NCBI GenBank assembly: GCA_947561715.1
Contig: OX387205.1
Coordinates: 811,001-875,000 of the forward strand
From: Ascidia mentula
Lineage: Eukaryota; Chordata; Ascidiacea; Phlebobranchia; Ascidiidae
Direction of reading: 5' to 3'
DNA: 64,000 nucleotides
This document shows, one piece after another, positions 17,201 through 40,505 of the stretch. The stretch's first letter is position 1; each line of letters starts with the position of its first letter. The position numbers and the translations under genes are program-made. Under the pieces are notes generated by a model, which was not told the DNA's origin, did not search any database, and saw only the letters and a program-made list of their open reading frames with translations.

Positions 17201-17571
17201 TGCAAATGATGGCGAACCGGCAAAATGGTACAGTGAAGTTTAAGTTTTCCAGCATTGTATGGGCTATCTTGTTCATATTAAATTTAAACATGATTTTTTT
17301 AATGAATCTTTTTTTGGTTTGCTGGAGTTCAGAAACCGAAATGTAAATAAACTACCGACATAGCTCGGTAATAGCAAGGAGCTAAGATTAACTTGGCAAA
17401 TATCACAACTTGATTATTTTAATTTTTGATGACAATATATTTTGCAGCAACCCAGGCTGTGCGACGGAGGCTCAGGAAAGACTTCTTCGTATCGTTGATT
17501 TGATTGATTTGAGAAAGATTCTTGCAGAGCTTAAATTGATGCAACTTTGTTCGAAGGCTCTAAAACTTTAA
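11249..17571 (+). CDS. LRRD1: LRRD1-like: leucine-rich repeats plus C-terminal death-like domain
   Basis: Fourteen exons: 11249-11433, 12133-12250, 12745-12875, 12946-13095, 13271-13393, 13535-13704, 14008-14177, 14554-14751, 14917-15114, 15261-15422, 15499-15652, 16090-16251, 16738-16912, 17448-17571; 739 aa. About residues 20-610 are consecutive LRRs of the LxxLxLxxNxLxxLP class. After a linker (GRFVRKAEDRD), the last two exons encode a death-like six-helix fold: FTRLCIKLHLPKEIV, EQLIELLRLWRDG, then NPGCATEAQERLLRIVDLID and LRKILAELK. This LRR plus death-domain order is that of vertebrate LRRD1 (about 860 aa). Such proteins are thought to be cytoplasmic adaptors; the function is not established. 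AATAAA follows the stop at 17637-17642. The final exon is the left part of the tandem repeat unit, so five further copies lie downstream. Confidence 0.85.
17121..17282. repeat. Perfect 41-bp inverted repeat, 80-bp loop
   Basis: Arms 17121-17161 and 17242-17282 are exact reverse complements (left arm begins TTTAATATGAACAAGATAGC). It lies in the last intron of the LRRD1-like gene, about 110 bp before the first base shared by the tandem array units. It could be a fold-back/MITE or a transcribed hairpin. No clear target duplication. Confidence 0.8.
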
Positions 17572-17719
17572 CAATCGTCGATTGTTACGAACGTATTTTC
17601 AACATATTATCTGTGTATGGTGCGCACGGAAGTCTAAATAAAAGCTTCTCTTTTAACGATTGCGGTTGCCATTAATGGCAGATCGGTTGCGATGATTAAC
17701 GAAAGGTTAGACGAGATTA

Positions 17720-17748
17720 GTGACGTTTAAAATTATATAATACGTCAC
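17720..17748 (+). promoter_or_regulatory. Lectin-gene core promoter: TATA flanked by GTGACGT / ACGTCAC
   Basis: GTGACGT, 15 bp containing ATTATATAATA, then ACGTCAC: two CRE/ATF-like half sites in inverted orientation around a TATA box, about 130 bp before the lectin start codon. The same block occurs at 22050-22078 (right half site changed to AGGTCAC), 23995-24023, 28139-28167, 31955-31983 and 35846-35874. It starts only about 80 bp after the death-domain exon poly(A) signal. Function as promoter is inferred from position and conservation. Confidence 0.65.
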
Positions 17749-17876
17749 CTTCATCAAAACACAAACGGCGTTAGAATTGTCGGTAAAACAAAGGCGTGTT
17801 TTTGTGTTGGTGCAAGCAGTCAGACGCATTGCGCAGTGTTTGATTTGTGTTGGTTAGTCTCTAACTGGCTTCAAGC

Positions 17877-19748
17877 ATGTTTCGCATTACAGTTTTGATG
17901 GCAACTTGTGTTTTCTTAGCTCCACTTTGTGAAGGTAAGTGACATGTAACGAAAATGTGTTGTGACGTCATAGTGAGTAAAAGTTGAAGACTTTGGACAT
18001 TATCAATACGGTGGTCTGTGACGACACCAGTTTCTAATCAAATTTTTCAATTTACATTCGTAAAATATAAATCCATCAACTTTGACATCGTTGGTGGTAA
18101 AACAGGTGTGAGCTCTAAATCCTGAACAGCAAATGTTTATCAGCGCCAATGATCGCATAGATTTTCTCCAGGGCAGCTTAACTACGTCCCCGTGGGTTCA
18201 GATGCCAATTTTAAGAACCACTGAATTAAGGCAAATAACAAAATTACCTTCGGGTTTTTCGTGAATTACGTCACGATACAAGTTATCTATAGGTTCGATT
18301 GAAACTGGAGTGGCCGAGTTCACCTTGGCGTCAACTACCTCCAGACAAAACGTCACAATTGAGTTCGAGAGGTGTTTCGTGATCAGGCCCCTGCACGTGG
18401 AGACGCGAATTAGAAAGAATACCAGTGCATATCAAGGTTACGTCGTTTACACAGCAAGTATCATCAACCGTACTTCATTTGTAGCTGAAATAAGGCGAAA
18501 AAATGGGTCGGGATGGGCGAGCACAACATTTGTGATCGAATGGAAATCGTACCAGTTTACAGGTAAGCTAATGGTCACGCCTTTGGACTTTTGATAGAAA
18601 CTGTTTGTTCAACCGAGAAATAATGCTTCATAAAGCAATCGTGTTATGACATATTTGCTAACGTTGTGAAATGTAAAAAATATGAACTTTTTCAATAATT
18701 TGTTGCTGTACAAAGAGCGCAGCAGTGATTTTTATGCATGCTATACTTCTATCAGCTGCATACAATCTGATCAGTGGTGGACAACCAGTGAGTCGTTTCA
18801 ACATATACTACTATCACCTGTCATCTGTCGGACTTACCTGGCAAAGTGCTCGAGATCGCTGTGTGTCAGTGGCCAACAGAGACCTATGCAATAGCTCGCA
18901 AATCTGCCACAACGGCAGTGTCAGGTTGACCGGAACAGCGTTTGGTAGTGATTGGACACCTATCAGGTAAAAATACATATACGTTATAAGCACCATCACC
19001 TTTTTGGCAAAATCCTATTGGTGGAAACAAAGTTGACAGACTAAGCATTAGCATAGCAGGCAAGGTACATGCTGATATGGATCGATAAGTCCTGACGGTG
19101 TGCAAACCTGCTTTGACATGACAGAGTGGGCATAATTTTTCCACTAACATTTATCAACATGAAAAATGTTTTGGGCTAAATATACATAACAAGACTGCGA
19201 CAGGAGGGTTTTATGTAGCGGCGTATCAATGATAAAATATCTGTATGCATTGACTGTTAGGTTTACTGGCTGTCGTTTTTTAATGTATAGATTGTGGACA
19301 ATAAAATAGCATAATGTTGGTTGGTTAATATTGTAAGACTGCTGTGCGTATTCTTCCCAAATTAATTTTAGGCGATATTAGGACAAAGTTTGTTTGTGTT
19401 GTAACAAATCGCCAGTGACAAATCTCTAATGCTTTTACATTTGCCAGCCCATCTAAATGACAGCACGGTAAAAATACTAAATAATTATACGACATGTGAC
19501 TGTGAGCTTACGTACAAGGACCAACACAGCACTGTGGTGACTGCGTATTTTGTTTCTTCAGAGGAAAAACCAATGACTGGTTGCAGATTGGAGACGAAAA
19601 AGGGGGGAACAACGTTTGCCGCGAATATTTCGCATTATTTACTTGGGAGCCTGAATGGAGTCTTGAAATTCCAGGATGTCAATACTCCACCCCTTATGAT
19701 GGCTGCTCCCCTAGAGGCCATGTCTTCTGCTGCCGATCTGTGAACTAA
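17877..19748 (+). CDS. Lectin-like secreted protein, unit 1
   Basis: Exons 17877-17934, 18293-18562, 18756-18966, 19562-19748; 726 nt, 241 aa. Exon 1 is a signal peptide (MFRITVLMATCVFLAPL). Exon 2 fits an H-type lectin (discoidin/Helix agglutinin) strand pattern: NVTIEFERCFVIRPLHVET, then VVYTASIINRTSFVAEIRR and FVIEWKSY, with N-glycosylation sequons. Exons 3-4 form a cysteine-rich module (TWQSARDRC, RDLC, SSQIC, DWLQIGD, GHVFCC) that I cannot name. In exon 4 the phase set by the exon-3 donor (AG|GTAAAA) selects a frame different from the longest open frame; only this frame aligns with the diverged paralogue at 40.5-41.7 kb. Probably a secreted sugar-binding or defence-type protein; the sugar-binding role is inference. 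Confidence 0.8.
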
Positions 19749-19950
19749 AAAGGCACTCTCGCCTTTGTTCGTCACAATGCTCTTTATTCGCTAAACTCCA
19801 ACAAAGAACATGTTCATTAAAATCCATCTGAGCTGTCCACAGATCGCTTGTGGAATTTAACATGTAATTATTTCTTTTATCACATTGTTCATTAAGCTTA
19901 TTTTTTTAACAAAAACTTTTTGTGTGTGTGAGTGTGAGTTGTATAGATAG

Positions 19951-20012
19951 CGTGGCGATGGTGACCCGTGTATTCTGAAATGATATGCTTTGTGCTGTGA
20001 AAACGTTTGAAA
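19951..20012 (+). pseudogene. Relic of a second lectin exon 4
   Basis: Downstream of the used exon 4, GACCCGTGTATTCTGAAA and TTTGTGCTGTGAAAACGT match the last codons of the diverged paralogue's final exon (DPCILKGHVLCNETV, 41690-41734), with a stop in the middle. The equivalent stretch occurs in units 3 (about 26200), 4 (30344), 5 (34183) and 6 (38067). It implies an ancient tandem duplication of the terminal exon, one copy of which decayed before the array expanded. Confidence 0.6.
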
Positions 20013-21047
20013 CACTTTATTGATCATTTATATAAGAGGTAGCTGTAATTTTGATGCGCAGAAATGGACAATGATAAAATGTAAAGCCTGAAAATGTTGG
20101 AACACATGTTGTTGTACACTACCTTATTCTGTGATAAATATCACTGTACAGTTTCACATTCAGTTGGTCCAGCGACCAACAATACTGTTGCAGATGTGAG
20201 TTAAGAAATCATTTTTAAATGAAATTGTTGGATGCCCCCCTATTCATTTCCGTTAACGACAAGAAGTTTGCGAAAACTAATTGTTACGGACAAGAACGCT
20301 TACTAGTAAGAAATAATTATTTCCCGCCTCCGCAGTCATTTTGTTGTGGACATCTTGTGACGTAACAAGCACCTTATGTTCATCTCGTTTCGACTAGTGG
20401 AATGTTTGGATTGTTGTATGTTGTAGGCGTAAATCAGTATGTGATAGCAATATTCTGTTTGAATATGATGCGGTCCGAAGCTTTTCAAAATCACTTTAGA
20501 ATACAATTTTGAAACTGTTATATGAATGATCGGATTGCAAATAAAAGTGCATATTAAACAAATTGTCGTTAGTGGTTTGTAAAGTGACTAATCCAGCACT
20601 GCCATTAGTATGACAGCTCGTAACCATTGTACCTTTTTAAACCTCTCTCTACCTTGTAAGCTAGACTATGATGATGACGTCACTGCTATGCAGTTTTTGT
20701 TCGTCGTGCGTGATGGCCAGACCGATTTGAACTCAGTTCTCAGATTTTGCACTCACTTGTCCCTTGTTAAGCATGGTCAGTCCATTTAGCATTGATGTTA
20801 AACATAACATAGTGTTCGTATGACTAATCTAATTTCAGCAAACAATGAAAGCTTGGACGAACAAGCATTTAGTTGCAGCAAAGGAATAATTGTATTTAAA
20901 TAATTCAGCTGCCACAGAGGAAGTGTTGTCGTTAAAAAAATCTGCTTGGACTTTCGAAGATCTGTCATGGATACTTTATCGATATAACGTCAGTTATTAG
21001 CTTCAATAAAATTGTTTAAAACTTCATCGCAATGCTTATTTGGGTTC

Positions 21048-21490
21048 TGTAGCAACACGCATGTTTCCCTGCTTAATTCTTTGCACATTTGAAACACATA
21101 CGTTAAGCTTTCCTGCCGGAGCTCCCACAGGCTTTCTGGCATCCTACTGGACAACACATTTTTTCTAACACTTTGTAATAAAACGCTCATTTTCGTAATC
21201 CTTCGACAGGCTAGTCTTGTCTACTCTCTCGGCCCTGTCGTTACTCTCGCCATCGCGCTGTAACGTTCGCACGTTCTTTTAATAGTTAATTCGCTGCAAT
21301 TCAGTCACGTGTTAAACGCGCTTGAAACAAATTTAACTTAAGCCACCTGGTACTTGCAATCGTGCCTTTCAATTAATACACAAGTCTGCCACGGAGTTTC
21401 AAATCAAGTATAGTCTTCAGCAAGAACACGCAAGCAGACTTTAGTTTTAGCAAAGCAGCGACAGGGAATCCTATTGGTACGCTGCAGTTC
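21048..21490. other. 443-bp segment unique to unit 1 and unit 3 tails
   Basis: Present here and, at 27123-27594, in unit 3; the other tails jump directly from TTTGGGTTC to AATGCAGATG. GTTC/TTC occurs at both ends, compatible with either an insertion or a microhomology deletion in the others. The minus strand holds a 66-codon open frame at 20990-21190 starting MSVLLQSVRKNVLSS that is partly inside it. In unit 3 that frame is shifted by two bases. Nature unknown: gene fragment or mobile fragment. Confidence 0.6.
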
Positions 21491-21777
21491 AATGCAGATG
21501 TACAGAAAGTGGAGAGTTTTAAAGCAAGGATACTCGTTCAGAAAATTAAGTAAACTTCGTACACATTATAACCATGTGTGATGGATTGTCAACCACCACA
21601 CGGACACTGCAGTAGCTTGTTGGTTACAAGAACGTGAATGACGTTGTCGATACGAGTGCCTGGTCAATACAATATGGTAGGCAACTGAATTGTAAAGTGT
21701 TTGACGGTTGTTCAAAATTTACTTGGCAAATATCACAACTTGATTGTTTTCAGTTTTGATAAAAATATATTTTGCAG

Positions 21778-21901
21778 CAACCCTAGATGTGCGACGGATG
21801 CTCAGGAAAGACTTCTTCGTATCGTTGATTTGATCGATTTCAGAAAAATTCTTGCAGAGCTTAAATTGATGCAACTTTGTTCGAAGGCTCTAAAACTTTA
21901 A
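21778..21901 (+). CDS. LRRD1 death-domain last exon, copy in unit 2
   Basis: 124-base exon with acceptor TTTTGCAG, same phase as the exon at 17448. It encodes NPRCATDAQERLLRIVDLID then FRKILAELKLMQLCSKALKL and a stop, with AATAAA after it. It has no start of its own. It could serve as an alternative terminal exon of the LRRD1-like gene, or be an unused passenger of the tandem duplication. Confidence 0.6.
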
Positions 21902-22206
21902 CAATCGTCGATTGTTACGAACGTATTTTCAACATATTATCTGTGTATGGTGCGCACGGAAGTCTAAATAAAAGCTTCTCTTTTAATGATTGCGGTTGCC
22001 ATTAATGGCCGATCGGTTGCGATGATTAACGAAAGATTAGACGAGATAAGTGACGTTTAAAATTATATAATAGGTCACCTTCATCAAAACACAAACGGCG
22101 TTAGAATTGTCGGTAAAGCAGAGGCGTGTTTTTGTGTTGGTGCAAGCAGTCAGACGCATTGCGCAGTGTTTGATTCGTATTGGTTAGTCTCTAACTGGCT
22201 TCAAGC

Positions 22207-23140
22207 ATGTTTCGCATTACAGTTTTGCTGGCAACTTGTCTTTTCTTAGCTCCACTTTATGAAGGTAAGTGACATGTAACGAAAATGTGTTGTGACGTCA
22301 CAGTGCGTAAAAGTTGTAGACTTCTGGACATTATCAATGCGATGGTTGATGACGTCACTAGTTTCTAATCAAATTTTTCAATTTACATTCGTAAAATATA
22401 AATCCATCGATTTTGACATCGTTGGTTGCAAAACAGGTGTGAGCTCTAAATCCTGAACTGCAAATGTTTATCAGCGCCAATGATCGCATAGATTTTCTCC
22501 AGGGCAGCTTAACTACGTTCCCGCAGGTTCAGGTGCCCATTTTAAGAACCACTGAATTAAGGCAAAGAACAAAATTACCTTCGGGTTTTTCGTGAATTAC
22601 GTCACGATACAAGTTATCTATAGGTTTGATTGAAACTGGAGTGGCCGAGTTCACTTTGACGTCAACTACCTCCAGACAAAACGTCACAATTGAGTTCGAG
22701 AGGTGCTTTGTGATCAGGCCCCTGTACGTGGAGACGCGAATTAGAAAGAATACCAGTGCATATCAAGGTTACAACGTTTACACAGCAAGTATCATCAACC
22801 GTACTTCATTTGTAGCTGAAATATGGGGCGGGATGGGCGAACACAACATTTGTGATCGCATGGAAATCGTACCAGTTTACAGGTAAGCCAATGGTCACGC
22901 CTTTGGACTTTTAATAGAAACTGTTTGTTCAAACGAGAAATAATGCTTCATAAAGCAATCATATTATGACATATTTGCTAACGTTGTGAAATGTAAAAAA
23001 TATGAACTTTTTCAATAATTTGTTGCTGTACAAAAAGCGTAGCAGTGATTTTTATGCATGCTATATTTCTATCAGCTGCATACAATCTAATCAGTGGTGG
23101 ACAAACAGTGAGTCGTTTCAACATATACTACTATCACCTG
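22207..23140 (+). pseudogene. Broken lectin-like gene, unit 2
   Basis: Exon 1 (22207-22264) is intact. Exon 2 (22624-22882) is 11 bases shorter than in the other units (loss in the AEIRR...GW loop), which shifts the frame. Exon 3 is cut after TATTACCTG-like sequence at 23140, where a deletion of about 1.9 kb joins directly to unit tail (GCCAGACCGATTTG). Exon 4 is absent. A plain pseudogene unless it makes a short secreted product. Confidence 0.85.
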
Positions 23141-23712
23141 GCCAGACCGATTTGAACTCAGTTCTCAGATTTTGCACTCACTTGGACCTTGTTAAGCATG
23201 GTCAGTGCATTCAGCATTGATGTTAAACATAATATAGTGTTCGTATGACTAATCTAATTTCAGCAAATAATGAAAGGTTAAACGAATAAGCATTTAGTTG
23301 CAGCAAAGGAATAATAGTATATAAATGATTCAGTCGCCACAGAGGAAATGTAGTCGTCAACACATTATCGATATAAAGTCAGTTATTTGCTTAAATAAAA
23401 TGGTTTAAAACTTAATCGAAATGCTCATTTGGGTTCAATGCAGATGTACAGAAAGTGGAGAGGTTTAAAGCAAGGATTCTCGAAAATTAAGTAAACTTCG
23501 TACATGTTAACCATGTGTGATGGATTGTCAACCACCACACTGACACTGTAATAGCTTGTTGGTTAAAAGAACGTGGACGTTGTCGATACGAGTTCCTGTT
23601 CAATACAATATAGTAGGCAACTGAAGTGTAAGTGCTTTACGGTTGTTCAAGATTTACTTGGCAAATATCACAACTCGATTTTTTTCAGTTTTGATAAAAA
23701 TATATTTTGTAG

Positions 23713-23836
23713 CAACCCTGGATGTGCGACGGAGGCTCAGGAAAGACTTCTTCGTATCGTTGATTTGATCGATTTCGGAAAGATTTTTGCAGAGCTTAAA
23801 TTGATGCAACTTTGTTCGAAGGCTCTAAAACTTTAA
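23713..23836 (+). CDS. LRRD1 death-domain last exon, copy in unit 3
   Basis: 124 bases, open. Acceptor is TTTTGTAG rather than TTTTGCAG. Protein differs from unit 1 in the helix LIDFGKIFAEL. The same variant is found in unit 5, supporting dimer-wise expansion. It can only be expressed by splicing from an upstream LRRD1 exon. Confidence 0.6.
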
Positions 23837-24142
23837 CAATCGTCGATTGTTACGAACGTATTTTCAAAATATTATCTGTGTATGGTGCGCACGGAAGTCT
23901 AAATAAAAGCTTCTCTTTTAATGATTGCGGTTGCCATTAATGGCAGATCGGTTGCGATGATTAACGAAAGGTTAGACGAGATAAGTGACGTTTAAAATTA
24001 TATAATACGTCACCTTTATCAAAACACAAACGGCGTTAGAATTTTTTGGTAAAACAGAGGCGTGTTTTTGTGTTGGTGCAAGCAGTCAGACGCATTGCGC
24101 AGTGTTTGATTCGTATTGGTTCGTCTCTAACTGGCTTCAAGC

Positions 24143-26004
24143 ATGTTTCGCATTACAGTTTTGATGGCAACTTGTGTTTTCTTAGCTCCACTTTGTGAAG
24201 GTAAGTGACATGTAACGAAAATGTGTTGTGACATCATAGTGAGTAAAAGTTGAAGACTTCTGGACATTATCAATCCGATGGTCGGTGACGACACCAGTTT
24301 CTAATCAAATTTTTCAATTTACATTCGTAAAATATAAATCCATCAACTTAGACATCGTTGGTGGTAAAACAGGTGTGAGCTTTAAATCCTGAACTGCAAA
24401 TGTTTATCAGCGCCAATGATCGCATAGATTTTCTCCAGGGCAGCTTAACTACGTCCCCGTGGGTTCAGATGCCCATTTTAAGAACCACTGAATTAAAGCA
24501 AAGAACAAAATTACCTTCGGGTTTTCCGTGAATTACGTCACGATACAAGTTATCTATAGGTTTGATTGAAACTGGAGTGGCCGAGTTCACCTTGACGTCA
24601 AATACTTCGAGACAAAACGTCACAATTGAGTTCGAGAGGTGCTTTGTGATCAGGCCCCTGCACGTGGAGACGCGAATTAGAAAGAATACCAGTGCATATC
24701 AAGGTTACGTCGTTTACACAGCAAGCATCATCAACCGTACTTCATTTGTAGTTGATTTAAGGCGGTTAGATGAGGCGGCATGGTCGAGCACAACATTTGT
24801 GATCGAATGGAAATCGTACCAGTTTACAGGTAAGCCAATGGTCACGCCTTTAGACGTTTAATAGAAACTGTTTGTTCAAACGAGAAATAATGCTTCATAA
24901 AGCAATCATATTATGACATATTTGCTAACGTTGTGAAATGTAAAAAATATGAAATTTTTCAATAATTTGTTGCTGGACAAAAAGCGCAGCAGTGATTTTT
25001 ATGCATGCTATATTCCTATCAGCTGCATACAATCTAATCAGTGGTGAACAACCATTGAGTCGTTTCAACATATACTACTATCACCTGTCATCTACCGGAC
25101 TTACCTGGCAAAGTGCTCGAGATCGCTGTATGTCAGTGGCCAACAGAGACCTATGCAATAGTTCGCAAATCTGCCACAACGGCAGTGTCAGGTTGACCGG
25201 AACAGCGTTTGGTAGTGTTTGGACACCTATCAGGTAAAAATACATACGTTATAAGCACCATCACCTTTTTGTCAATACCTTATTGGTGGAAACAAAGTCG
25301 ACAGACTAAGCATTAGCGTAGCAGGCAAGTTACATGCTGATATGGATCGATAAAGCCTGACGGTGTGCAAACCTGCTTTGACATGACAGAGTGGGCATAA
25401 TTCTTCCACTAACATTTATCAACATGAAAAGTGTTTTGGGCTAAATATACATAACAAGACTGCGACAGGAGGGTTTTATGTAGCGGCGTATCAATGATAA
25501 AATATCGGTGTGTATTGACTGTTAGGTTTACTTTTTTAATGTATAGATTGTGGACAATAAAATAGCATAATGTTGGTTGGTTAATATTGTAAGACTGCTG
25601 TGCGTATTCTTCCCAAATTAATTTTAGGCGATATTAGGTCAAAGTTTGTTTGTGTTGTAACAAATCGCCAGTGACAAATCTCTAATGCTTATACTTTTGC
25701 CAGCTCATCCAAATGACAGCACGGTAAAAATACTAAATAATTATACGACATGTGACTGTGAGCTTACGTACAAGGACCAACACAGCACTGTGGTGACTGC
25801 GTATTTTGTTTCTTCAGAGGAAAAACCAATGACTGGTTGCAGATTGGAGACGAAAAAGGGGGGAAGAACGTTTGCCGCGAATATTTCGCATTATATGATA
25901 GGGCGCCTGAATGGAGTCTTGAAATTCCAGGATGTCAATACTCCACCCCTTATGATGGCTGCTCCCCTAGAGGCCATGTCTTCTGCTGCCGATCTGTGAA
26001 CTAA
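24143..26004 (+). CDS. Lectin-like secreted protein, unit 3
   Basis: Exons 24143-24200, 24560-24829, 25023-25233, 25818-26004; 241 aa, all junction phases as in unit 1. The H-type-lectin-like exon differs most in a short loop: VVDLRRLDEAAWSS here versus VAEIRRKNGSGWAS in unit 1. Cysteine-rich module: TWQSARDRC, SSQIC, DWLQIGDEKGG, CREYFALYDRAPEWS, GHVFCC. Signal peptide and promoter as in unit 1. Function inferred only from the domain pattern. Confidence 0.8.
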
Positions 26005-27865
26005 AAACACACTTGCGCCTTTGTTCGTCACAATGCTCTTTATTCGCTTAACTTCAACAAAGAACATGTTCATTAAAATCTATCTGAGCTGTCCACAGAT
26101 TGCTTTGTGGAATTTAACATGTAATTATTTCTTTTATCACATTGTTCTTTAAGCTTATTTTTTGACAAAAACTTTTTTCGTGTGTGAGTGTGAGTTGTAT
26201 AGATAGCGTGGCGATGGTGACCCGTGTATTCTGAAATGTTATGCTTTGTGCTGTGAAAACGTTTGAAACACTTCATTGATCATTTATATGAGAGGTAGCT
26301 GTAATTTTGATGCACAGAAATAGACAATGATAAAACGTAAAGCCTGAAAATGTTGGAACACATGTTGTTGTACGCCACCTTATTCTGCGATAAATATCAC
26401 TGTACAGTTTCACATTCAGTTGGTCCAGCGACCAACAATACTGTTGCAGATGTGAGTTAAGAAAGCATTTTTAAATGAAATTGTTGGATGCTGCCCTATT
26501 CATTTCCGTTAACGACAAGAAGTTTGCGAAAACTAATTGTTACGGACAAGAACGCTTACTAGTAAGAAATAATTATTTCCCGCCTCCACGGTCATTTTGT
26601 TATGGACATCTTGTGACGTAACAAGCACCTTATGTTCATCTCGTTTCGACTAGTGGAATGTTTGGATTGTTGTATGTTATGAGCGTAAATCAGTATGTGA
26701 TGGTAATATTCTGTTTAAATATAGTGCGGTCCGAAGCTTTTTAAAATCACTTCAGAATACAATTTTGAAATTGTTGTATCAATGATCGGGATTGCAAATA
26801 AAAGTGCATATTAAACACTTGTCATTAGTGGTTTGTAAAGTGAATAATCCAGCACTGCCATTAGTATGACAGCTTGTAACCATTGTACCTTTTTAAAACC
26901 TTTCTCTACCTTGTAAGCTAGACTATGATGACGTCACTGCTATTTAGTTGCAGCAAAGGAATAATTGTACTTAAATAATTCAGCTGCCACAGAGGAAGTG
27001 TTGTCGTTAAAAAAATGTGCTTGGACTTTCGAAGATCTGTCGTGGATACTTTATCGATATAACGTCAGTTATTTGCTTCAATAAAATTGTTTAAAACTTC
27101 ATCGCAATGCTTGTTTGGGTTCTGTAGCAACACGCATGTTTCCCTACTCAATTCTTTACACATTTGGAACACATATACGTTAAGCTTTCCTGCCGGAGCT
27201 CCCACAGGCTTTCTGGCATCCTGCTGGACAACACATTTTTTCTAACACTTTGTAATAAAACGCTCATTTTCGTAATCCTTCGACAGGCTAGTCTTGTCTA
27301 CTCTCTTAGTCGCTCGTACTCTCTCGGCCCTGTCGTTACTCTCGCCATCGCGCTGTAACGTTCGCACGTTCTTTTAATAGTTAATTCGCTGCAATTCAGA
27401 AACGTGTGAAACGCGCTTGAAACAAATTAAACTTAAACCACCTGGTACTTGCAATCGTGCCTTTCAATTAATAACAAATCTGCCACGGAGTTTCAAATCA
27501 AGTATAGTCTTCAGCAAGAACACGCAAGCAGACTTTAGTTTTAGCAAAGCAGCGACAGGGAATCCTATTGGTACGTTGCAGTTCAATGCAGATGTACAGA
27601 AAATGGAGAGTTTTAAAGCAAGGATACTCGTTCAGAAAATTAAGTAAACTTCGTACATGTTAACCATGTGTGATGGATTGTCAACCACCACACCAACACT
27701 GCAGTAGCTTGTTGGTCATAAGAACGTGAATGACGTCGATACGAGTGCCTGTTCAATACAATATAGTAGGCAACTGAAGTGTAAGTGCTTTACGGTTGTA
27801 CAAGATTTACTTGGCAAATATTACAACTTGATTGTTTTCAGTTTTGATAAAAATATATTTTGCAG
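26005..27865. other. Unit 3 tail
   Basis: Type-A tail. Compared with unit 1 it lacks roughly 200 bp after the GACGTCACTGCTAT motif (near 26942) but keeps the extra segment (27123-27594). No gene supported beyond the fragment described for unit 1. Confidence 0.5.
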
Positions 27866-27990
27866 CAACCCTGCGATGTGCGACGGAGGCTCAGGAAAGA
27901 CTTCTTCGTATCGTTGATTTGATCGATTTGAGAAAGATTCTTGCAGAGCTTAAATTGATGCAACTTTGTTCGAAGGCTCTAAAACTTTAA
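27866..27990 (+). pseudogene. LRRD1 death-domain last exon, unit 4, frameshifted
   Basis: 125 bases instead of 124: one extra base near the start (CCCTGCGATG versus CCCTGGATG). If spliced in the normal phase, the reading frame ends early after about 17 codons. Splice acceptor and poly(A) signal are kept. Confidence 0.75.
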
Positions 27991-28295
27991 CAATCGTCGA
28001 TTGTCACGAACGTATTTTCAACATACTATCTGTGTATGGTGCGCACGGAAGTCTAAATAAAAGCTTCTCTTTTAACGATTGCGGTTGCCATTAATGGCAG
28101 ATCGGTTGCGATGATTAACGAAAGGTTAGACGAGATTAGTGACGTTTAAAATTATATAATACGTCACCTTTCTCAAAACACAAACGGCGTTAGAATTTTC
28201 GGCAAAACAAAGCCGTGTTTTTGTGTTGGTGCAAGCAGTCAGACGCATTGCGCAGTGTTTGATTCGTATTGGTTCGTCTCCAACTGGCTTCAAGC

Positions 28296-30151
28296 ATGTT
28301 TCGCATTACAGTTTTGATGGCAACTTGTGTTTTCTTAGCTCCACTTTATGAAGGTAAGTGACATGTAACGAAAATGTGTTGTGACGTCATAGTGCGTAAA
28401 AGTTGAAGACTTTTGGACATTATCAATACGGTGGTCGATGACGATACCAGGTTCCAATAAAATTGTCGAATTTAGACAACGTAAAGTATGAATCAATTCG
28501 TCTTGACATCGTTGGTTGTAAAACAGGTGTGAGCTCTAAATCCTGAACAGCAAATGTTTATCATCGACAATGATCGCATAGATTTTCTCCAGGGCAGCTT
28601 AACAACGTCCCCGTGGGTTCAGATGCCCATTTTAAGAACCACTAAATTAAGGCAAAGAACAAAATTACCTTCGGGTTTTTCGTGAATTACGTCACGATAC
28701 AAGTTATCTATAGGTTCGATTGAAACTGGAGTGGCCGAGTTCACCTTGACGTCAACTACTTCGAGACAAAACGTCACAATTGCGTTCGAGAGGTGCTTTG
28801 TGATCAGGCCCCTGCACGTGGAGACGCGAATTACAAAGAATACCAGTGCATATCAAGGTTACGTCGTTTACACAGCAAACATCATCAATCTTACTTCATT
28901 TGTAGCTGAAATAAGGCGGAGAGATGGGGCGGGATGGGCGAGCACAACATTTGTGATGGAATGGAAATCGTACCAGTTTACAGGTAAGCTAATGGTCACG
29001 CCGTTATACTTTTAATAGATACTGTTTGTTCAACCGAGAAATAATGCTTCATAAAGCAATCGTATTATGACATATTTGCTAACGTTGTGAAACGGAAAAA
29101 ATATGAACTTTTTCAATAATTTGTTGCTGCACAAAAAGCGCAGCAGTGATTTTTATGCATGCTATATTTCTATCAGCTGCATATAATCTAATCAGTGGTG
29201 GACAACCAGTGAGTCGTTTCAACATATACTACTATCACCTGTCATCTATCGGACTTACCTGGCAAAGTGCTCGAGATCACTGTATGTCAGTGGCTAACGG
29301 AGACCTATGCAATAGTTCGCAAATCTGCCACAACGGCAGCGTCAGGTTGACCGGAACAACGTTTGGTAGTGAATGGACACCTATCAGGTACATATACGTT
29401 ATAAGCACCATCACCTTTTGGCAATATCCTATTGGTGGAAACAAAGTTGACAGACTGAGCATTAGCGTAGCAGGCAAGGTACATGCTGATATGGATCGAT
29501 AAGTCCTGACGGTGCGCAAACCTGCTTTGACATGACAGAGTGGGCATAATTCTTCCACTAACACTTATGAACACGAAAAATGTTTTGGGCTAAATATACA
29601 TAACAAGACTGCGACAGGAGGGTTTTATGTAGCGGCGTATCAATAATAAAATATCTGTAGGCTATGTATTGACTGTTAGGTTTATTTTTTAATGTATAGA
29701 TTGTGGACAATAAAATAGCATAATGTTGGTTGGTTAATATTGTAAGACTTCTGTGCGTATTCTTCCCAAATGAATTTTGGGCGATTTTAGGTCAAAGTTT
29801 GTTTGTGTTGTAACAAATCGCCAGTCACAAATCTCTGATGCTTTTGCCAGCCCATCCAAATGACAGCACGGTAAAAATACTAAATAATTATACTTCATGT
29901 GACTGTGAGCTTACGTACAAGGACCAACACAGCACTTTGGTGACTGTGTATTTTGTTTCTTCAGGGGAATAACCAATAACTGGTTGCAGATTGGAGACGA
30001 ACAAGATGGAAGGAACTTTTGCCGCGAATATTTCGAAATATTTAAAAAGGCGCCTGAATGGAGTCTTGAATTTCCAGGTTGTCAATACTCCACCCCTTAT
30101 GATGGCTGCATCCCTAGAGGCCATGTCTTCTGCTGCCGATCTGTGAACTAA
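28296..30151 (+). CDS. Lectin-like secreted protein, unit 4
   Basis: Exons 28296-28353, 28714-28983, 29177-29387, 29965-30151; 241 aa. Loop reads AEIRRRDGAGWAS. Exon 3 carries the HCMSVANGDLC variant shared with unit 6. Exon 4 carries GITNNWLQIGDEQDGRNF, shared with unit 5 rather than 6, a mosaic that suggests gene conversion. In exon 4 the alternative (longest) frame of other units is closed here by a stop, while the frame used in this annotation stays open, supporting the choice. Exon 3 donor is GTACAT, weaker than in the other units. Confidence 0.8.
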
Positions 30152-31682
30152 AAAGGCACTTGCGCCTTTGTTCGTCACAATGCTCTTTATTCGCTTAACT
30201 TCAACAAAGAACATGTTCATTAAAATCCATCTGAGCTGTCCACAGATTGCTTTGTGGAAGTTAACATGTAATTATTTCTTTTATCACATTGTTCTTGAAG
30301 CCTATTTTTTTACAAAAACTTTTTTGTGTGTGAGTTGTATAGATAGTGTGGCGGTGACCAGTGTATTCTGAAATGTTATGCTTTGTGCTGTGAAAACGTT
30401 TGAAGCACTTCATAGATCATTTATATAAGAGGTAGCTGTAATTTTGATGCTCAGAAATAGACAATGATAAAATGTAAAGCCTGAAAATGTTGGAACACAT
30501 GTTGTTGTACGCATCCCTATTCTGCGATAAATATCACTGTACAGTTTCACATTCAGTTGGTCCAGCGACCAACAATACTGTTGCAGATGTGAGTTGAGAA
30601 AGCATTTTTGAATAAAATTGCTGGATGCTCCCTTATTCATTTCCGTTAACGACAAGAAGTTTGCGAAAACTAATTGTTACGGACAAGAACGCTTACTAGT
30701 AAGAAATAATAATTTCCCGCCTCCACACTAATTTTGTCATGGACATCTTGTGACGTAACAAGCACCTTATGTTCATCTCGTTTCGACTAGTGGAATGTTT
30801 GGATTGTTGTATGTTATGGGCGTAAACCAGTATGTGATGGCAATATTCTGTTTAAATATGGCGCGTTCCGAAGGTTTTTAAAATCACTTTAGAATACAAT
30901 TTTGAAATTGTTGTATGTATGATCGGGATTGCAAATAAAAGTGCATATAAAACAAATTGTCATTTGTGGTTTGTAAAGTGACTAATCCAGCACCAGCAGT
31001 ATGACAGCTCGTAACCAATGTACCTTTTTAAAACCTCTCTCTACTTTGTAAGCTAGACTATGATGACGTCACTGCTATGCAGATTTTATTCGTCGTGCGT
31101 AATGGCCAGACCAATTTGAACTCAGTTCTCAGCTTTTGCACTCACTTGTCCCTTGTTGAGCATGCTGATCAGTGCATTCAGTATTGATTTTAAACATAAT
31201 ATAGTGTTCGTATGACTAATCTAATTTCAGCAAATAATGAAAGCTTGAACGAACAAGCATTTAGTTGCATCAAAGGAATAATAGTATATAAATGATTCAG
31301 TCGCCACAGAGGAAATGTAGTCGTCAACACATTATCGATATAAAGTCAGTTATTTGCTTCAATAAAATGGTTTAAAACTTAAACGAAATGCTTAGTTGGG
31401 TTCAATGCAGATGTACAGAAAGTGGAGAGGTTTAAAGCAAGGATTCTCGAAAATTAAGTAAACTTCGTACATGTTAACCATGTGTGATGGATTGTCAACC
31501 ACCACACGGACACGGCAATAGCTTGTTGGTTATAAGAACGTGCATGACGTTGTCGATACGAGTGCCTGTGCAATACAATATGGTGGGCAACTGAAGTGTA
31601 AGTGCTTTACGGTTGTTCAAGATTTACTTGGCAAATATCACAACTCGATTTTTTTCAGTTTTGATAAAACTATATTTTGCAG
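30152..31682. other. Unit 4 tail
   Basis: Type-B tail (with CAGTCGCCACAGAGG and the short GGGTTCAATG junction). Contains the exon-4 relic near 30344. No further gene seen. Confidence 0.5.
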
Positions 31683-31806
31683 CAACCCAGGCTGTGCGAC
31701 GGAGGCTCAAGAAAGACTTCTTCGTATCGTTGATTTGATCGATTTCGGAAAGATTTTTGCAGAGCTTAAATTGATGCAACTTTGTTCGAAGGCTCTAAAA
31801 CTTTAA
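31683..31806 (+). CDS. LRRD1 death-domain last exon, copy in unit 5
   Basis: 124 bases, open, acceptor TTTTGCAG. Encodes the FGKIFAEL variant shared with unit 3; stop and AATAAA follow. Usable only by splicing from upstream LRRD1 exons. Confidence 0.6.
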
Positions 31807-32111
31807 CAATCGTCGATTGTTACGAACGTATTTTTAACATATTATCTGTGTATGGTGCGCACGGAAGTCTAAATAAAAGCTTCTCTTTTAATGATTGCGG
31901 TTGCCATTAATGGCAGATCGGTTGCGATGATTAACGAAAGGTTAGACGAGAGTAGTGACGTTTAAAATTATATAATACGTCACCTTTCTCAAAACACAAA
32001 CGGCGTTAGAATTTTCGGTAAAACAGAGCCGTGTTTTTGTGTTGGTGCAAGCAGTCAGACGCATTGCGCAGTGTTTGATTCGTATTGGTTCGCCTCTAAC
32101 TGGCTTCAAGC

Positions 32112-33987
32112 ATGTTTCGCATTACATTTTTGATGGCAACTTGTCTTTTCTTAGCTCCACTTTGTGAAGGTAAGAGACATGTTAACGAAAATGTGTTGTG
32201 ACGTCACAGTGCGTAAAAGTTGAAGACTTCTGGACATTATCAATCCAATGGTCGGTGACGACACCAGTTTCTAATCAAATTTTTCAATTTACATTCGTAA
32301 AATATGAATCCATCAACTTAGACATCGTTGGTTGTAAAACAGGTGTGAGCTCTAAATCCTGAACAGCAAATGTTTATCAGCGCCAATGATCGCATAGATT
32401 TTCTCCAGGGCAGCTTAACTACGTTCCCGTGGGTTCAGATGCCCGTTTTAAGAACCACTGAATTAAAGCAAAGAACAAAATTACCTTCGGGTTTTTCGTG
32501 AATTACGTCACGATACAAGTTATCTATAGGTTTGATTGAAACTGGAGTGGCCGAGTTCACCTTGGCGTCAACTACCTCAAGACGAAACGTCACAATTGAG
32601 TTCGAGAGGTGTTTCGTGATCAGGCCCCTGCACGTGGAGACGCGAATTAGAAAGAATACCAGTGCATATCAAGGTTACGTCGTTTACACAGCAAACATCA
32701 TCAACCGTACTTCATTTGTAGCTGAAATAAGGCGGAAAAATGGGTCGGGATGGGCGAGCACAACATTTGTGATCGCATGGAAATCGTACCAGTTTACAGG
32801 TAAGCCAATGGTCACGCCTTTAGACTTTTAATAGAAACTGTTTGTTCAACCGAGAAATAATGCTTCATAAAGCAATCGTGTTATGACATATTTGCTAACG
32901 TTGTGAAATGTAAAAAATATGAACTTTTTCAATAATTTGTTGCTGTACAAAAAGCGCAGCAGTGATTTTTATGCATGCTATATTTCTATCAGCTGCATAC
33001 AATCTAATCAGTGGTGGACAACCAGTGAGTCGTTTCAACATATACTACTATCACCTGTCATCTATCGGATTTACCTGGCAAAGTGCTCGAGATCGCTGTG
33101 TGTCAGTGGCCAACAGAGACCTATGCAATAGTTCGCAAATCTGCCACAACGGCAGTGTCAGGTTGACCGGAACAGCGTTTGGTAGTGTTTGGACACCTAT
33201 CAGGTAAAAATACATACGTTATAAGCACCATCACCTTTTTGTCAACACCTTATTGGTGGAAACAAAGTCGACAGACTAAGCATTAGCGTAGCAGGCAAGG
33301 TACATGCTGATATGGATCGATAAGTTCTAACGGTGTGCAAACCTGCTTTGACATGACAAAGTGGGCATAATTCTTCCACTAACATTTATCAACATGAAAA
33401 GTGTTTTGGGCTAAATATACATAACAAGACTGCGACAGGAGGGTTTTATGTAGCGGCGTATCAATGATAAAATATCTGTAGGCTATGTATTGACTGTTAG
33501 GTTTACTGGCTGTCGTTTTTAATGTATAGATTGTGGACAATAAAATAGCATAATGTTGGTTGGTTAATATTGTAAGACTGCTGTGCGTATTCTTCCCAAA
33601 TGAATTTAAGGCGATTTTAGGTCAAAGTTTGTTTGTGCTGTAACAAATCGCCAGTGACAAATCTCTAATGCTTATACATTTGCCAGCTCATCTAAATGAC
33701 AGCACGGTAAAAATACTAAATAATTATACGTCATGTGACTGTGGACTTACGTACAAGGACCAACACAGCACTTTGGTGACTGTGTATTTTGTTTCTTCAG
33801 GGGAATAACCAATAACTGGTTGCAGATTGGAGACGAACAAGATGGAAGGAACTTTTGCCGCGAATATTTCGAAATATTTAAAAAGGCGCCTGAATGGAGT
33901 CTTGAATTTCCAGGTTGTCAATACTCCACCCCTTATGATGGCTGCATCCCTAGAGGCCATGTCTTCTGCTGCCGATCTGTGAACTAA
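32112..33987 (+). CDS. Lectin-like secreted protein, unit 5
   Basis: Exons 32112-32169, 32530-32799, 32993-33203, 33801-33987; 241 aa. First two exons and intron 1 resemble units 1 and 3 (loop AEIRRKNGSGWAS as in unit 1), while exon 4 matches unit 4 (GITNNW, EQDGRNF). Exon 1 donor is GTAAGA. All phases agree with the other copies and no internal stops are present. Confidence 0.8.
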
Positions 33988-35573
33988 AAAGGCGCTTGCG
34001 CCTTTGTTCGTCACAATGCTCTTTATTCGCTAAACTTCAACAAAAAACATGTTCATTAAAATCCATCTGAGCTGTCCTCAGATCGCTTTGTGGAATTTAA
34101 CATGCAATTATTTCTTTTATCACATTGTTCATTAAGCTTTTTTTTTGACTAAAACTGTTTTGTGTGTGAGTTGTATAGATAGCGTGGCGATGGTGACCCG
34201 TGTATTCTGAAATGTTATGCTTTGTGCTGTGAAAACGTTTGAAACACTTCATTGATCATTTATATGAGAGGTAGCTGTAATTTTGATGCACAGAAATAGA
34301 CAATGATAAAATGTAAAGCCTGAAAATGTTGGAACACATGTTGTTGTACGCCACCTTATTCTGCGATAAATATCACTGTACAGTTTCACATTCAGTTGGT
34401 CCAGCGACCAACAATACTGTTGCAGATGTGTGTTAAGAGAGCATTTTTGAATGAAATTGTTGGATGCTGCCCTATCCATTTCCGTTAACGACAAGAAGTT
34501 TGCGAAAACTAATTGTTACGGACAAGAACGCTTGCTAGTAAGAAATAATTATTTCCCGCCTCCACACTCATTTTGTTATGGACAACTTGTGACGTAACAA
34601 GCACCTTACGTTCATCTCGTTTCGACTAGTGGAATGTTTGGATTGTTGTATGTTGTGGGCGTAAATCAGTATGTGATGGCAATATTCTGTTTAAATATGG
34701 TATGCGGTCCGAAGCTTTTTAAAATCACTTTAGAATACAATTTTGAAATTGTTGTATGAATGATCGGGATTGCAAATAAAAGTGCGTATTAAACAAATTG
34801 TCATTAGTGGTTTGTAAAGTGACTAATCCAGCACTGTCATTTGTATGACAGCTCGTAACCATTGTACCTTTTTAAAACCATTCTCTACCTTGTATGCTAG
34901 CCTATGATGATGATGTCACTGCTATGCAGATGTTGTTCTCCGTGCATGATGGCCAGACCGATTTGAACTCAGTTCTCAGCTTTTGCACTCACTTGTCCCT
35001 TGCTAAGCATGGTCAGTGCATTTAGCATTGATGTAAAACACAATATAGTGTTGGCATGACTAATCTAATTTCTGCAAATAATGAAAGGTTAAACAAACAA
35101 CCATTTAGTTGCAGCAAAGGAATAATTGTATTTGAATAATTCAGCTGCCACAGAGGAAGTGTTGTCGTTAAAAAAAATCTGCTTGGACTTTCGAAGATCT
35201 GTCATGGATACTTTATCGATATAACGTCAGTTATTTGCTTGAATAAAAATGTTTAAAACTTGATCGCAATGCTTATTTGGGTTCAATGCAGATGAACAGA
35301 AAGTGGAGAGTTTTAAAGCAAGGATACTCGTTCAGAAAATTAAGTAAACTTCGTACACATTATAACCATGTGTGATGGATTGTCAACCACCTAACCAACA
35401 CTGCAGTAGCTTGTTGGTTACAAGAACGTGGACGTTGTCGATACGAATTCCTGTTCAATACAATATAGTAGGCAACTGAAGTATAGGCCTAAGTGCTTCA
35501 CGGTTGTACAAGATTTACTTGGCAAATATCACAACTTGATTGGTTTCAGTTTTGATAAAAATATATTTTGCAG
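33988..35573. other. Unit 5 tail
   Basis: Type-A tail, but without the 443-bp segment found in units 1 and 3. Contains the exon-4 relic near 34183. No other gene seen. Confidence 0.5.
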
Positions 35574-35697
35574 CAACCCTGGATGTGCGACGGAGGCTCA
35601 GGAAAGACTTCTTCGTATCGTTGATTTGATCGATTTGAGAAAGTTTCTTGCAGAGCTTAAATTGATGCAACTTTGTTCGAAGGCTCTAAAACTTTAA
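35574..35697 (+). CDS. LRRD1 death-domain last exon, copy in unit 6
   Basis: 124 bases, open, with LIDLRKFLAEL; stop, then AATAAA. Same acceptor and phase as unit 1. Last copy of this exon in the array. Confidence 0.6.
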
Positions 35698-36002
35698 CAA
35701 TCGTCGATTGTTACGAACGTATTTTCAAAATATTATCTGTGTATGGTGCGAACGGAAGTCTAAATAAAAGCTTCTCTTTTAATGATTGCGGTTGCCATTA
35801 ATGGCAGATCGGTTGCGATGATTAACGAAAGGTTAGACGAGATAAGTGACGTTTAAAATTATATAATACGTCACCTTTCTCAAAACACAAACGGCGTTAG
35901 AATTTTCGGTAAAACAGAGCCGTGTTTTTGTGTTGGTGCAAGCAGTCAGACGCATTGCGCAGTGTTTGATTCGTATTGGTTCGTCTCTAACTGGCTTCAA
36001 GC

Positions 36003-37870
36003 ATGTTTCGCATTACAGTTTTGATGGCAACTTGTGTTTTCTTAGCTCCACTTTATGAAGGTAAGTGACATGTAACGAAAATGTGTTGTGACGTCATAGT
36101 GAGTAAAAGTTGAAGACTTCTGGACATTATCAATACGGTGGTCTGTGACGACACCAGTTTCTAATCAAATTCTCGAATTTAGACAACGTAAAATATAAAT
36201 CAATTCGTCTTGACATCGTTGGTTGTAAAAAAGGTGTGAGCTCTAAATCCTGAACCGCAAATGTTTATTAGCGCCAATGATCGCATAGATTTTCTCCAGG
36301 GCAGCTTAACTACGTTCCCGTGGGTTCAGGTGCCTGTTTTAAGAACCACTGAATTAAGGCAAACAACAAAATCACCTTCGGGTTTTTCGTGAATTTCGTC
36401 ACGATACAAGTTATCTATAGGTTCGATTGAAACTGGAGTGGCCGAGTTCACCTTGGCGCCAAATACTCCCAGACAAAACGTCACAATTGTGTTCGAGAGG
36501 TGTTTCGTGATCAGGCCCCTGCACGTGGAGACGCGAATTAGAAAGAATACCAGAGCATATCAAGGTTACGTCGTTTACACAGCAAGCATCAATCTTACTT
36601 CATTTGTAGCTGAAATAAGGCGGAGAGATGGGGCGGGATGGGCGAGCACAGCATTTGTGATGGAATGGAAATCGTACCAGTTTACAGGTAAGCTAATGGT
36701 CACGCCTTTATACTTTTAATAGATACTGTTTGTTCAACCGAGAAATAATGCTTCATAAAGCAATCGTGTTATGACATATTTGCTAACGTTGTGAAACGGA
36801 AGAAATTGGAACTTTTTCAATAATTTGTTGCTGTACAAAGAGCGCAGCAGTGATTTTTATGCATGCTATATTTCTATCAGCTGTATATAATCTAATCAGT
36901 GGTGGACAACCAGTGAGTCGTTTCAACATATACTACTATCACCTGTCATCTGTCGGACTTACCTGGCAAAGTGCTCGAGATCACTGTATGTCAGTGGCTA
37001 ACGGAGACCTATGCAATAGTTCGCAAATCTGCCACAACGGCAGCGTCAGGTTGACCGGAACAGCGTTTGGTAGTGATTGGACACCTATCAGGTAAAAATA
37101 CATACGTTATAAGCACCATCACCTTTTGGCAATATCCTATTGGTGGAAACAAAGTTGACAGACTGAGCATTAGCGTAGCAGGCAAGGTACATGCTGATAT
37201 GGATCGATAAGTCCTGACGGTGTGCAAACCTGCTTTGACATGACAGAGTGGGCATAATTCTTCCTCTAACATTTATCAACATGAAAAATGTTTTGGGCTG
37301 AATATACATAACAAGACTGCGACAGGAGAGTTTTATGTAGCGGCGTATCAAAGATAAAATATCTGAATGTATTGACTGTTAGGTTTACTGGCTGTCGTTT
37401 TTTAATGTATAGATTGTGGACAATAAAATAGCATAATGTTGGTTGGTTAATATTGTAAGACTGCTGTGCGTATTCTTCCCAAATTAATTTTAGGCGATTT
37501 TAGGTCAAAGTTTGTTTGTGTTGTAACAAATCGCCAGTGACAAATCTCTAATGCTTATACATTTGCCAGCTCATCTAAATGACAGCACGGTAAAAATAAT
37601 AAATAATTATACTCCGTGTGACTGTGGGCTTACGTACAAGGACCAACACAGCACTGTGGTGACTGCGTATTTTGTTTCTTCAGAGGAAAAACCAATGACT
37701 GGTTGCAGATTGGAGACGAACAAGGGGGAAGGAACTTTTGCCGCGAATTTTTCGAAATATTTAAAAAGGCGCCTGAATGGAGTCTTGAATTTCCAGGTTG
37801 TCAATACTTCACCCCTTATGATGGCTGCTCCCCGAGAGGCCATGTCTTCTGCTGCCGATCTGTGAACTAA
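36003..37870 (+). CDS. Lectin-like secreted protein, unit 6
   Basis: Exons 36003-36060, 36421-36687, 36881-37091, 37684-37870; exon 2 is three bases shorter (one residue, ASINLTSF), giving 240 aa. N-terminal strand reads TLAPNTPRQNVTIVF, the most changed of the open copies. Intron 1 carries a variant shared only with unit 4 (AATTTAGACAACGTAAA). Cysteine-rich module intact: DHCMSVANGDLC, SSQIC, DWLQIGDEQGG, GHVFCC. Confidence 0.8.
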
Positions 37871-40505
37871 AAAGGCGCTTGCGCCTTTTTTCGTCACAAT
37901 GCTCTTTATTCGCTTAACTTCAACAAAGAACATGTTCATTAAAATCCATCTGAGCTGTCCACAGATTGCTTTGTAGAATTTAACATGTAATTATTTCTTT
38001 TATAGCTTTGTTGATTAAGCTTATTTTTTTAACAAAAACTTTTTTTGTGTGTGAGTTGTATAGATAGCGTGGCAAAGGTGAACCGTGTATTCTGAAATGT
38101 TATGCTTTGTGCTGTGAAAACGTTTGAAACACTTCATTGATCATTTATATGAGAGGTAGCTGTAATTGTGATGCTCGGAAATAGACAATGATAAAATGTA
38201 AAATGCCTGAAAATGTTGGAACACATGTTGTTGTACGCCACCTTATTCTGCGATAAATATCACTGTACAGTTTCACATTCAGTTGGTCCAGCGACCAACA
38301 ATACTGTTGCAGATGTGAGTTAAGAAAGCACTTTTGAATGAAATTGCTGGATGCTCCCCTATTCATTTACGTTAACGACAAGAAGTTTGCGAAAACTAAT
38401 TGTTACGGACAAGAACGCTTACTGGTAAGAAATAATATTTTTCCCGCCTTCACAGTCATTTTGTTATGGATATCTTGTGACGTAACAAGCACCTTATGTT
38501 CATCTCTTTTCGACTAATGGAATGTTTGGATTGTTGTATGTTGTGGGCATAAATCAGTATGTGATAGCAATATTCTGTTTAAATATGGTGCGGTCCGAAG
38601 CTTTTCAAAATCACTTTAGAATACAATTTTGAAATTGTTGTATGAATGATCGGATTGCAAATAAAAGTGCATATTAAACACTTGTCATTAGTGGTTTGTA
38701 AAGTGACTAATCCAGCACCAGCCATTAGTATGACAGCTCGTAACCATTGTACCTTTTTAAAACCTTTCTCTACCTTGTAAGCTAGACTATGATGACGTCA
38801 CTGCTATGCAGATTTTATTCGTCGTGCGTGATGGCCAGACCGATTTGAACTCAGTTCTCAGCTTTTGCACTCACTTGTCCCTTGTTAAGCATGGTCAGTA
38901 CATTTAGCATAGATTTTAAACATAATATAGTGTTCGCATGACTAATCTAATTTCAGCAAATAATGAAAGCTTGAACGAATAAGCATTTAGTTGCAGCAAA
39001 GGAATAATTGTATTCAAATTATTCAGTCGCCACAGAGGAAATGTAGTCGTCAACACATTATCGATATAACGTCAGTTATTTGCTTCAATAAAAATGTTTA
39101 AAACTTAATCGAAATGCTCATTTGGTTACGATACAGATATACAGAAAGTGGAGAGGTTTGAAGCAAGGATTCTCGAAAATTAAGTAAACTTCGTACATGT
39201 TAACCATGTGTGATGGATTGTATAAGCTTTTTGGTTATAAGAACGTGGACGTTGTCGATACGAGTGCCTGTGCAATACAATATGGTGGGCAACTGAAGTG
39301 TAAGTGCTTGTCGGAGTTGCTGGTGTGGTCTCACGAGTGACTCCAGTCGTTAATTTGAAAGTGAGGGTCTTGTTGCAGTAAAGTATGGTCAAGGCTATGT
39401 GTACGTTTAGGCTAAATAAGTAGAAACGTGTCTACACCACGGGAAATATATGCTTAAAATGCAGTTTCAATGCTAATCAGTTCGGTTTGCGGCAAATTCC
39501 AAACAAACTGTGACGTAACAATCAAACATTAGCGAAAACATTGCGTCACAACACAGTGCAACCGATGATGGTACAAGGAAAAATAGACTCTATTGATTAT
39601 GGCAACTATTGTGCATTGAAATTTATGGACTCTCAGGAACAAGAAAACTTGACCAAAGATTTACTGGTCGCTTGTTTGGGCTCCATGGACACTTAGTGGC
39701 CGTGAATGCATAGGATATAGAAGGCATTTGATTGAGGTGTCGTCTGCAAGGGCATATATACGCATGATCTATTCTCGGTATGATTGGAAGTTGGCAATGT
39801 ATTGGAAAAAAATTAAGCAAACCAATTGGTTGCTGATGCTGTCAGATATAATGTTTAGTCAATTAAATCAATGTTTTTTTTGTGTTTCCTAGGGCATCTG
39901 TGATCAATTCCTATTTCCTCTTAAATGTTAACTATGTTGTATCTAAACTATGTAGGGTAATTTGCAAACTAATCAGCCTTTAGCGGCGTTACCCGACTGA
40001 CTGTGAACCAAACTATGAAACTGTCACCCGAGACCAAGAATTGTTCAAGTGGTTTAAGATTTATTTTAGGTTGCATTGTTATCTTCTGTGCTGTATACTG
40101 ACAAGGTAAGTGTTTAATTTGGTAAATACTGGGGAAAGAATCTATTAGACTTTTGTACTTAAGTAACGTAATATATTGATTACAATTGAATAGCGTTTAA
40201 TGATTATTAAATGAATGGCGTTTAATGATATAATAAATGATTATTGAAATATATAAAAGCAACAAAATAGTGAAATAAACTTTTAGCACAGTGGCACTCA
40301 AACAGTCGAACTATCACAAGCATACTCGATATGTCAGAAAAACACCGCTGGTACGCCACATTACAAGTTTGCTTTTAGCACTGGTTATCACGCCCGTCCA
40401 GTCGTGCTGAAAATATTGGTTATTTGTAAACATCTTAGTAAAACGTAACTTACGTAGGGAATCATATCTCCCTGCCAACAAATTAACATTCTGTTGTGAT
40501 TAAAG
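37871..40505. other. Unit 6 tail and unique spacer before the diverged paralogue
   Basis: Array homology ends near 39309 (after GGCAACTGAAGTGTAAGTGCTT). From there to 40505 is unique AT-rich sequence. It contains a possible signal-peptide exon at 40015-40105 for the next gene, discussed there. No other gene supported. Confidence 0.5.

Follow-up and report, generated by a model that had tools for sequence, protein, structure and literature searches.

Based on self-alignment of a 64,000-nucleotide (nt) window of the Ascidia mentula genome (C73:811001-875000), combined with searches of the 195.8-Mb, 79-contig assembly, we describe an array of six direct tandem units, each of which joins the terminal exon of a neighbouring leucine-rich repeat (LRR)/death-like gene to a secreted gene. 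We consider it likely that this is a lectin-like gene array with a passenger exon, formed via duplication and unequal exchange according to the following mechanism. In the ancestral state, the secreted gene, encoding a signal peptide, an H-type-lectin-like beta-sandwich and DUF7495, would have been located just 3' of the terminal exon of the LRR/death-like gene. A single duplication, in which a site 3' of the secreted gene was fused to a site 64 nt ahead of that terminal exon, would then have created the repeat unit, from which unequal crossing-over and exchange between units may have generated six mosaic copies, along with deletions such as that in unit 2. The death exon would have been carried as a passenger, with the LRR transcripts presumably ending at the first copy while the others drift, as the pattern of substitutions and the frameshift in one copy suggest. 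The secreted proteins are probably binders of extracellular surface ligands, glycans or others, and may owe their diversity to copying and shuffling as well as to changes in a short part of DUF7495.

An earlier note, made from the window alone, had described six units, each repeating the last exon of an intracellular LRR/death-domain gene and an entire four-exon secreted gene with its own promoter, in a duplicated block starting inside the last intron of the upstream gene. Self-alignment confirms the array at 17384-39309, with an identity of 92.6-95.0% in the long self-matches between units, start-to-start distances of 4330, 1935, 4154, 3816 and 3891, and blastn bit scores up to 5980, far above chance. 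The left edge of every unit is positioned within intron sequence, 64 nt 5' of the terminal exon, in agreement with the proposed intronic start, and growth of the array has indeed multiplied the terminal exon and the secreted gene alike. A TATATA motif is found 143 or 144 nt 5' of the secreted-gene ATG in all six units, consistent with separate promoters, and in a genome search the stretch between the intron end and the promoter was located at six places only, the six units. Two parts of the description hold less completely. The secreted gene is intact, with four exons and 241 amino acids, in units 1, 3, 4, 5 and 6, whereas unit 2 is a pseudogene that lacks 11 nt of exon 2 and stops within exon 3; the death exon is present in all units and intact in five, with a frameshift in unit 4 (Table 1).

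Table 1. Coordinates of the array, its units and flanking features in the window.
Feature	Position	Strand	Basis or detail
Upstream LRR exons of LRR/death-like gene (approximate span)	12745..16251	+	LRR_8 matches
Penultimate exon, first part of death-like domain (...LIELLRLWRD)	16738..16912	+	Frame, AG acceptor and GT donor from sequence
Palindromic dispersed repeat, resembling a miniature inverted-repeat transposable element	17121..17282	.	Last intron, ~100 nt left of array edge; self inverted match
Unit 1	17384..21713	+	Self-alignment
Unit 1, terminal exon of LRR/death-like gene	17448..17571	+	Open reading frame, AG, stop, AATAAA at 17637
Unit 1, secreted gene exon 1	17877..17934	+	Signal peptide by eye MFRITVLMATCVFLAPLCEG; TATATA at -143
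Unit 1, exon 2, H-type-lectin-like fold (predicted)	18293..18562	+	AlphaFold2, Foldseek, VIA-align
Unit 1, exon 3, DUF7495 first half	18756..18966	+	Pfam PF24325, E 9.5e-13 over exons 3-4
Unit 1, exon 4, DUF7495 second half and stop	19562..19748	+	Pfam PF24325 match over exons 3-4
Unit 2, shortened	21714..23648	+	Exon 3 cut at 23140, without exon 4; death exon 21778-21901 intact
Unit 3	23649..27801	+	Secreted exons 24143-24200, 24560-24829, 25023-25233, 25818-26004; death exon 23713-23836; all intact
Unit 4	27802..31618	+	Intact secreted exons 28296-28353, 28714-28983, 29177-29387, 29965-30151; death exon 27866-27990 frameshifted
Unit 5	31619..35509	+	Secreted exons 32112-32169, 32530-32799, 32993-33203, 33801-33987; death exon 31683-31806; all intact
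Unit 6	35510..39309	+	Secreted exons 36003-36060, 36421-36687, 36881-37091, 37684-37870; death exon 35574-35697; all intact
Divergent seventh family copy, exons 2-4	40506..41734	+	Exon 2 41% identical

Domains of and selection on the secreted protein

Exon 2 of unit 1 is predicted to be folded (AlphaFold2 predicted local distance difference test score 82.2), forming a putative six-strand sandwich of ~90 amino acids. Besides phage tailspikes and pyocin fibres, the best-ranked solved structures were H-type lectins, as weak matches in Foldseek and VIA-align. Profile work used 13 sequences each time, a minor part of the family, and a Pfam scan of exon 2 in these 13 members gave no family, H-type lectin included, at E up to 10. 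A PDB profile search with exon 2 likewise returned no lectin among 11 matches; the best of these, ribosomal protein L23, was rejected as not credible. The H-type lectin identity guessed in the earlier note thus finds some support in the predicted fold, but none at the Pfam level, and we describe exon 2 as H-type-lectin-like in predicted fold only. For exons 3-4, for which the note had proposed a search of domain databases, the outcome is DUF7495 (PF24325), above the gathering cut-off: the unit-1 protein scores 48.9 bits against a cut-off of 27, exons 3-4 alone score 50.8 bits, and all 13 family members match at E up to 1. A weak overlap of DUF7495 with a mannose-receptor chain in the PDB (E 0.045) was not used. 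In the literature searched, no paper was found on DUF7495 or, by title, on an ascidian H-type lectin family.

The five intact secreted copies differ by 60 nonsynonymous and 18 synonymous changes, close to the neutral expectation of 0.72-0.76 nonsynonymous. The overall pairwise ratio of nonsynonymous to synonymous differences per site (pN/pS) is 0.92, with values of 0.91 for exon 2, 0.50 for exon 3 and 1.35 for exon 4. Positive selection is not shown by the overall counts (60:18, P 0.2-0.5) or by exon 4 alone (20:4, P 0.19-0.38). The only significant signal among the positive-selection tests is a clustering in exon 4, where 14 of the 20 nonsynonymous changes fall within 17 codons, 192-208 (p 0.003, for a width chosen after the data had been seen). 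Over longer time, the ratio of nonsynonymous to synonymous substitution rates (dN/dS) to two family genes on C72 is 0.28-0.35 in five comparisons covering units 1, 3, 4 and 6, and the two C72 genes compared to each other give 0.53. The secreted protein is therefore constrained over the longer term, while the near-neutral variation within the array indicates that constraint on the recent copies is relaxed or mixed.

Such variation would also be expected if the copies were a decaying array without function, whose open frames persist as the duplication is recent, and unit 2 is already broken. However, the intact copies hold no stop codon, against an expectation of 3.8 (one-sided P 0.025), and a single indel, in-frame, compared to 12 in noncoding sequence (one-sided P 0.045). 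Each of these is modest evidence; together with the dN/dS of about 0.3 to the C72 genes and the TATA box retained in every unit, they render general decay unlikely.

The copied terminal exon and growth of the array

LRR_8 is detected by Pfam on open reading frames 12914-13123 (E 1.8e-7) and 14554-14775 (E 1.2e-7), with a weak LRR match on 16056-16343. These frames are located upstream of the array on the same strand, and the splice phases are compatible from the exon ending at 16251 (phase 1) via 16738-16912 to the terminal exon 17448-17571, allowing a putative one-gene model. The joined penultimate and last exons align along positions 4-83 of the 86 in Pfam Death (E 0.016), but the score of 15.8 bits is under the 22.6-bit cut-off. 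The death domain named in the earlier note is therefore called death-domain-like only, having the alignment in its favour and the score against it. SNF5, the sole PDB match of this domain (E 0.88), was rejected. The relative may be LRRD1, which combines LRRs with a death domain.

All six copies of the terminal exon retain the 3' splice AG, as well as an AATAAA signal 66 nt past the stop position, and the frame is kept in all except unit 4, which carries a 1-nt insertion. The copies differ at 11 single bases, five synonymous and six nonsynonymous; with the one frameshifted copy, this count fits neutral passengers. Two observations weigh against the proposed explanation, namely the low TM-scores (template modelling) of the lectin structure matches of exon 2, and a pairwise pN/pS of 0.033/0.083 among the five intact death-exon copies, a ratio drawn from few sites. 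The copies may consequently be under weak constraint, yet they fit neutral variation, with low power, and are most likely passengers. Alternatively, the LRR/death-like gene could pick alternative last exons from the array, so that array growth would diversify its signalling-domain end together with the secreted protein. The preserved frames and signals are compatible with such use, as are the pN/pS of about 0.4 and the few residues that differ between copies. Intactness may, however, just reflect young copies, the frame is disrupted in unit 4, the 5:6 site count is compatible with neutrality, and all later copies would require read-through of the first polyadenylation signal and of the intervening secreted genes. 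We hence regard alternative last exons as improbable.

Returning to the array with passenger exons, the five internal unit edges apparently share one common junction sequence, unlike both outer edges, as compared by eye, and one founding duplication followed by unequal exchange therefore suffices. The units are mosaic copies: of the 30 unit triples, 13 contain a mosaic segment with permutation p < 0.01 (without correction for the number of triples), and units 4 and 5 reach an identity of 99% in a 300-column block with exon 4, compared to 86-97% in the remaining blocks. The palindromic repeat beside the left array edge (hairpin -78.7 kcal/mol; 90 genome-wide matches from 40 scored candidates) may have helped breakage there. 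The units could also be stacked haplotypes of a highly polymorphic animal, i.e. an assembly artefact, in keeping with their ~5% noncoding divergence, which presumably is within the range of ascidian heterozygosity. This is very unlikely, as the six units differ in length, have their own deletions and mosaic ancestry, and share a single internal junction in a 15.4-Mb contig with no N in the window; moreover, six units are not expected from two haplotypes alone.

A paralogue on C72 sheds light on the age of the junction between the death exon and the secreted gene. Directly before its exon 2, C72 gene B (L009, minus strand) carries a collinear relic (67% over 196 columns, E 8e-19) of window 17590-17784, the stretch after the death stop codon plus the promoter. 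Ahead of it, again collinear, a 39-column match to 17553-17589 was equalled in 0 of 3000 shuffles; 19 of its bases are the death-exon end, and the stop codon is not conserved in C72. Only this block straddling the death stop stands out, and the relic contains little of the exon: the death exon alone, to its stop, is no better than shuffles against C72 (13.3 compared to a mean of 13.0), the death exon together with the intron reaches 22.7 where the best shuffle attains 25.0, and 912 of 3000 shuffles do as well as the part before 17548, the rest of the exon not being there. In gene B, which seems to lack exon 1 and intron 1, the relic is only about 20 nt away from exon 2. Array intron 1 has no match in C72, and the match of gene B to an exon-1-plus-promoter query ends at about 17805, before exon 1 is reached. 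No such upstream flank was found at C72 gene A. With a synonymous divergence (dS) between array and C72 of about 0.55, the shared flank indicates that the junction probably predates the array. We favour, without proof, that C72 received a copy of a block beginning within the death exon; that the tail of the death gene was instead built from upstream DNA of the secreted gene ranks below this. A two-part recognition module, in which selected terminal exons match secreted binders and the C72 junction is a relic of the module, would mean that array growth diversifies sensor and effector together, but is very improbable. Functional coupling of death exon and secreted gene is not supported, the site counts and the frameshifted copy fitting passengers. 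For the role in immunity or self/non-self recognition that the earlier note had inferred, the only observations with any bearing are the expansion of the family and the mosaic nature of the copies.

Family members elsewhere in the genome

The exon-2 query matches at least 33 genomic places and the exon-4 query at least 52, at least 48 of the latter on C73, the contig of the array. By place, the lower bounds for exon 4 are 5 in the array, 2 on C72, 2 on C2 and, on C73, 11 at 2.70-2.87 Mb, 2 at 4.93-4.96 Mb and 30 at 5.27-5.55 Mb. The 2.70-2.87 Mb region (L014-L020) is a second tandem array of the family, in which several exon-4 matches are exactly 8,566 bases apart with equal E-values, pointing to very recent amplification, whereas the matches at 5.27-5.55 Mb form a large cluster on both strands. 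A direct Pfam search of the genome yields 11 DUF7495 exons, on C1, C2, C67 and C73; those at C67 5.27-5.32 Mb and C1 22.36-22.38 Mb, two contigs for which the exon-2 search listed no match, are perhaps other tandem sets.

Next to the array, the divergent seventh copy shows no copy of the death exon with the death-exon query. Its candidate signal exon at 40015-40105 has an in-frame TGA just 5' of the splice site, and the copy may be dead or start elsewhere. A lone exon-2-like domain on C72 (L009:7411-7130, minus strand), 66% identical to this seventh copy, adjoins the two array-like genes. Within L009, neither an exon 3 nor an exon 4 belonging to it was found behind it, and it is possibly a two-domain gene or a relic.

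Further 3' in the window, an inverted terminal motif (CCGTATTTTACGG...) encloses ~440 bases at 42212-42650, as seen by eye, maybe a DNA-transposon derivative. At 43420-46215, a single frame of 932 amino acids, which combines an ASPP2-like RA domain with ankyrin repeats and SH3, represents an ASPP-kind apoptosis regulator. In mitochondrial COX1, 18 AGR codons are translated as glycine with table 13, the ascidian code, which identifies the host as an ascidian; many of them are presumably at glycines conserved in animals, e.g. in MIGGFGNW and LPGFGMISH.

Relation to known systems and significance

The array protein may share a six-strand sandwich of ~90 amino acids, as predicted for exon 2, with H-type lectins such as Helix pomatia agglutinin, SLL-2 and the discoidin C-terminal domain. 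As in the rotifer H-type lectins described in PMC8878817, a single such domain follows the signal peptide of a secreted protein. Unlike H-type lectins, exon 2 of the array lacks a Pfam match in the 13 members and is coupled to DUF7495, the likeness being one of predicted fold alone. Tandemly duplicated lectin-like genes are reported in lophotrochozoan phyla, and in expansions such as that of the mollusc C1q-domain proteins, as described in PMC8878817, secreted recognition-type genes are multiplied likewise; the ascidian units differ in that each carries the terminal exon of a neighbour. The Themis self-sterility gene pairs of Ciona, as described in PMC7018956, similarly have an ascidian secreted recognition gene physically interleaved with another gene. 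In contrast to Themis, the array genes are on the same strand, share only one exon and form tandem copies.

In conclusion, the array represents gene-family growth in a rapidly evolving family of secreted proteins, a clear case but a rather ordinary one. It shows how the terminal exon of a neighbour can be dragged along and left looking open, and such exons represent a trap for gene prediction, which may yield false death-domain exons and fusion models. As a large ascidian secreted family that combines a lectin-like predicted fold with DUF7495 and is located mainly on one contig, it is a fair candidate for work on recognition.

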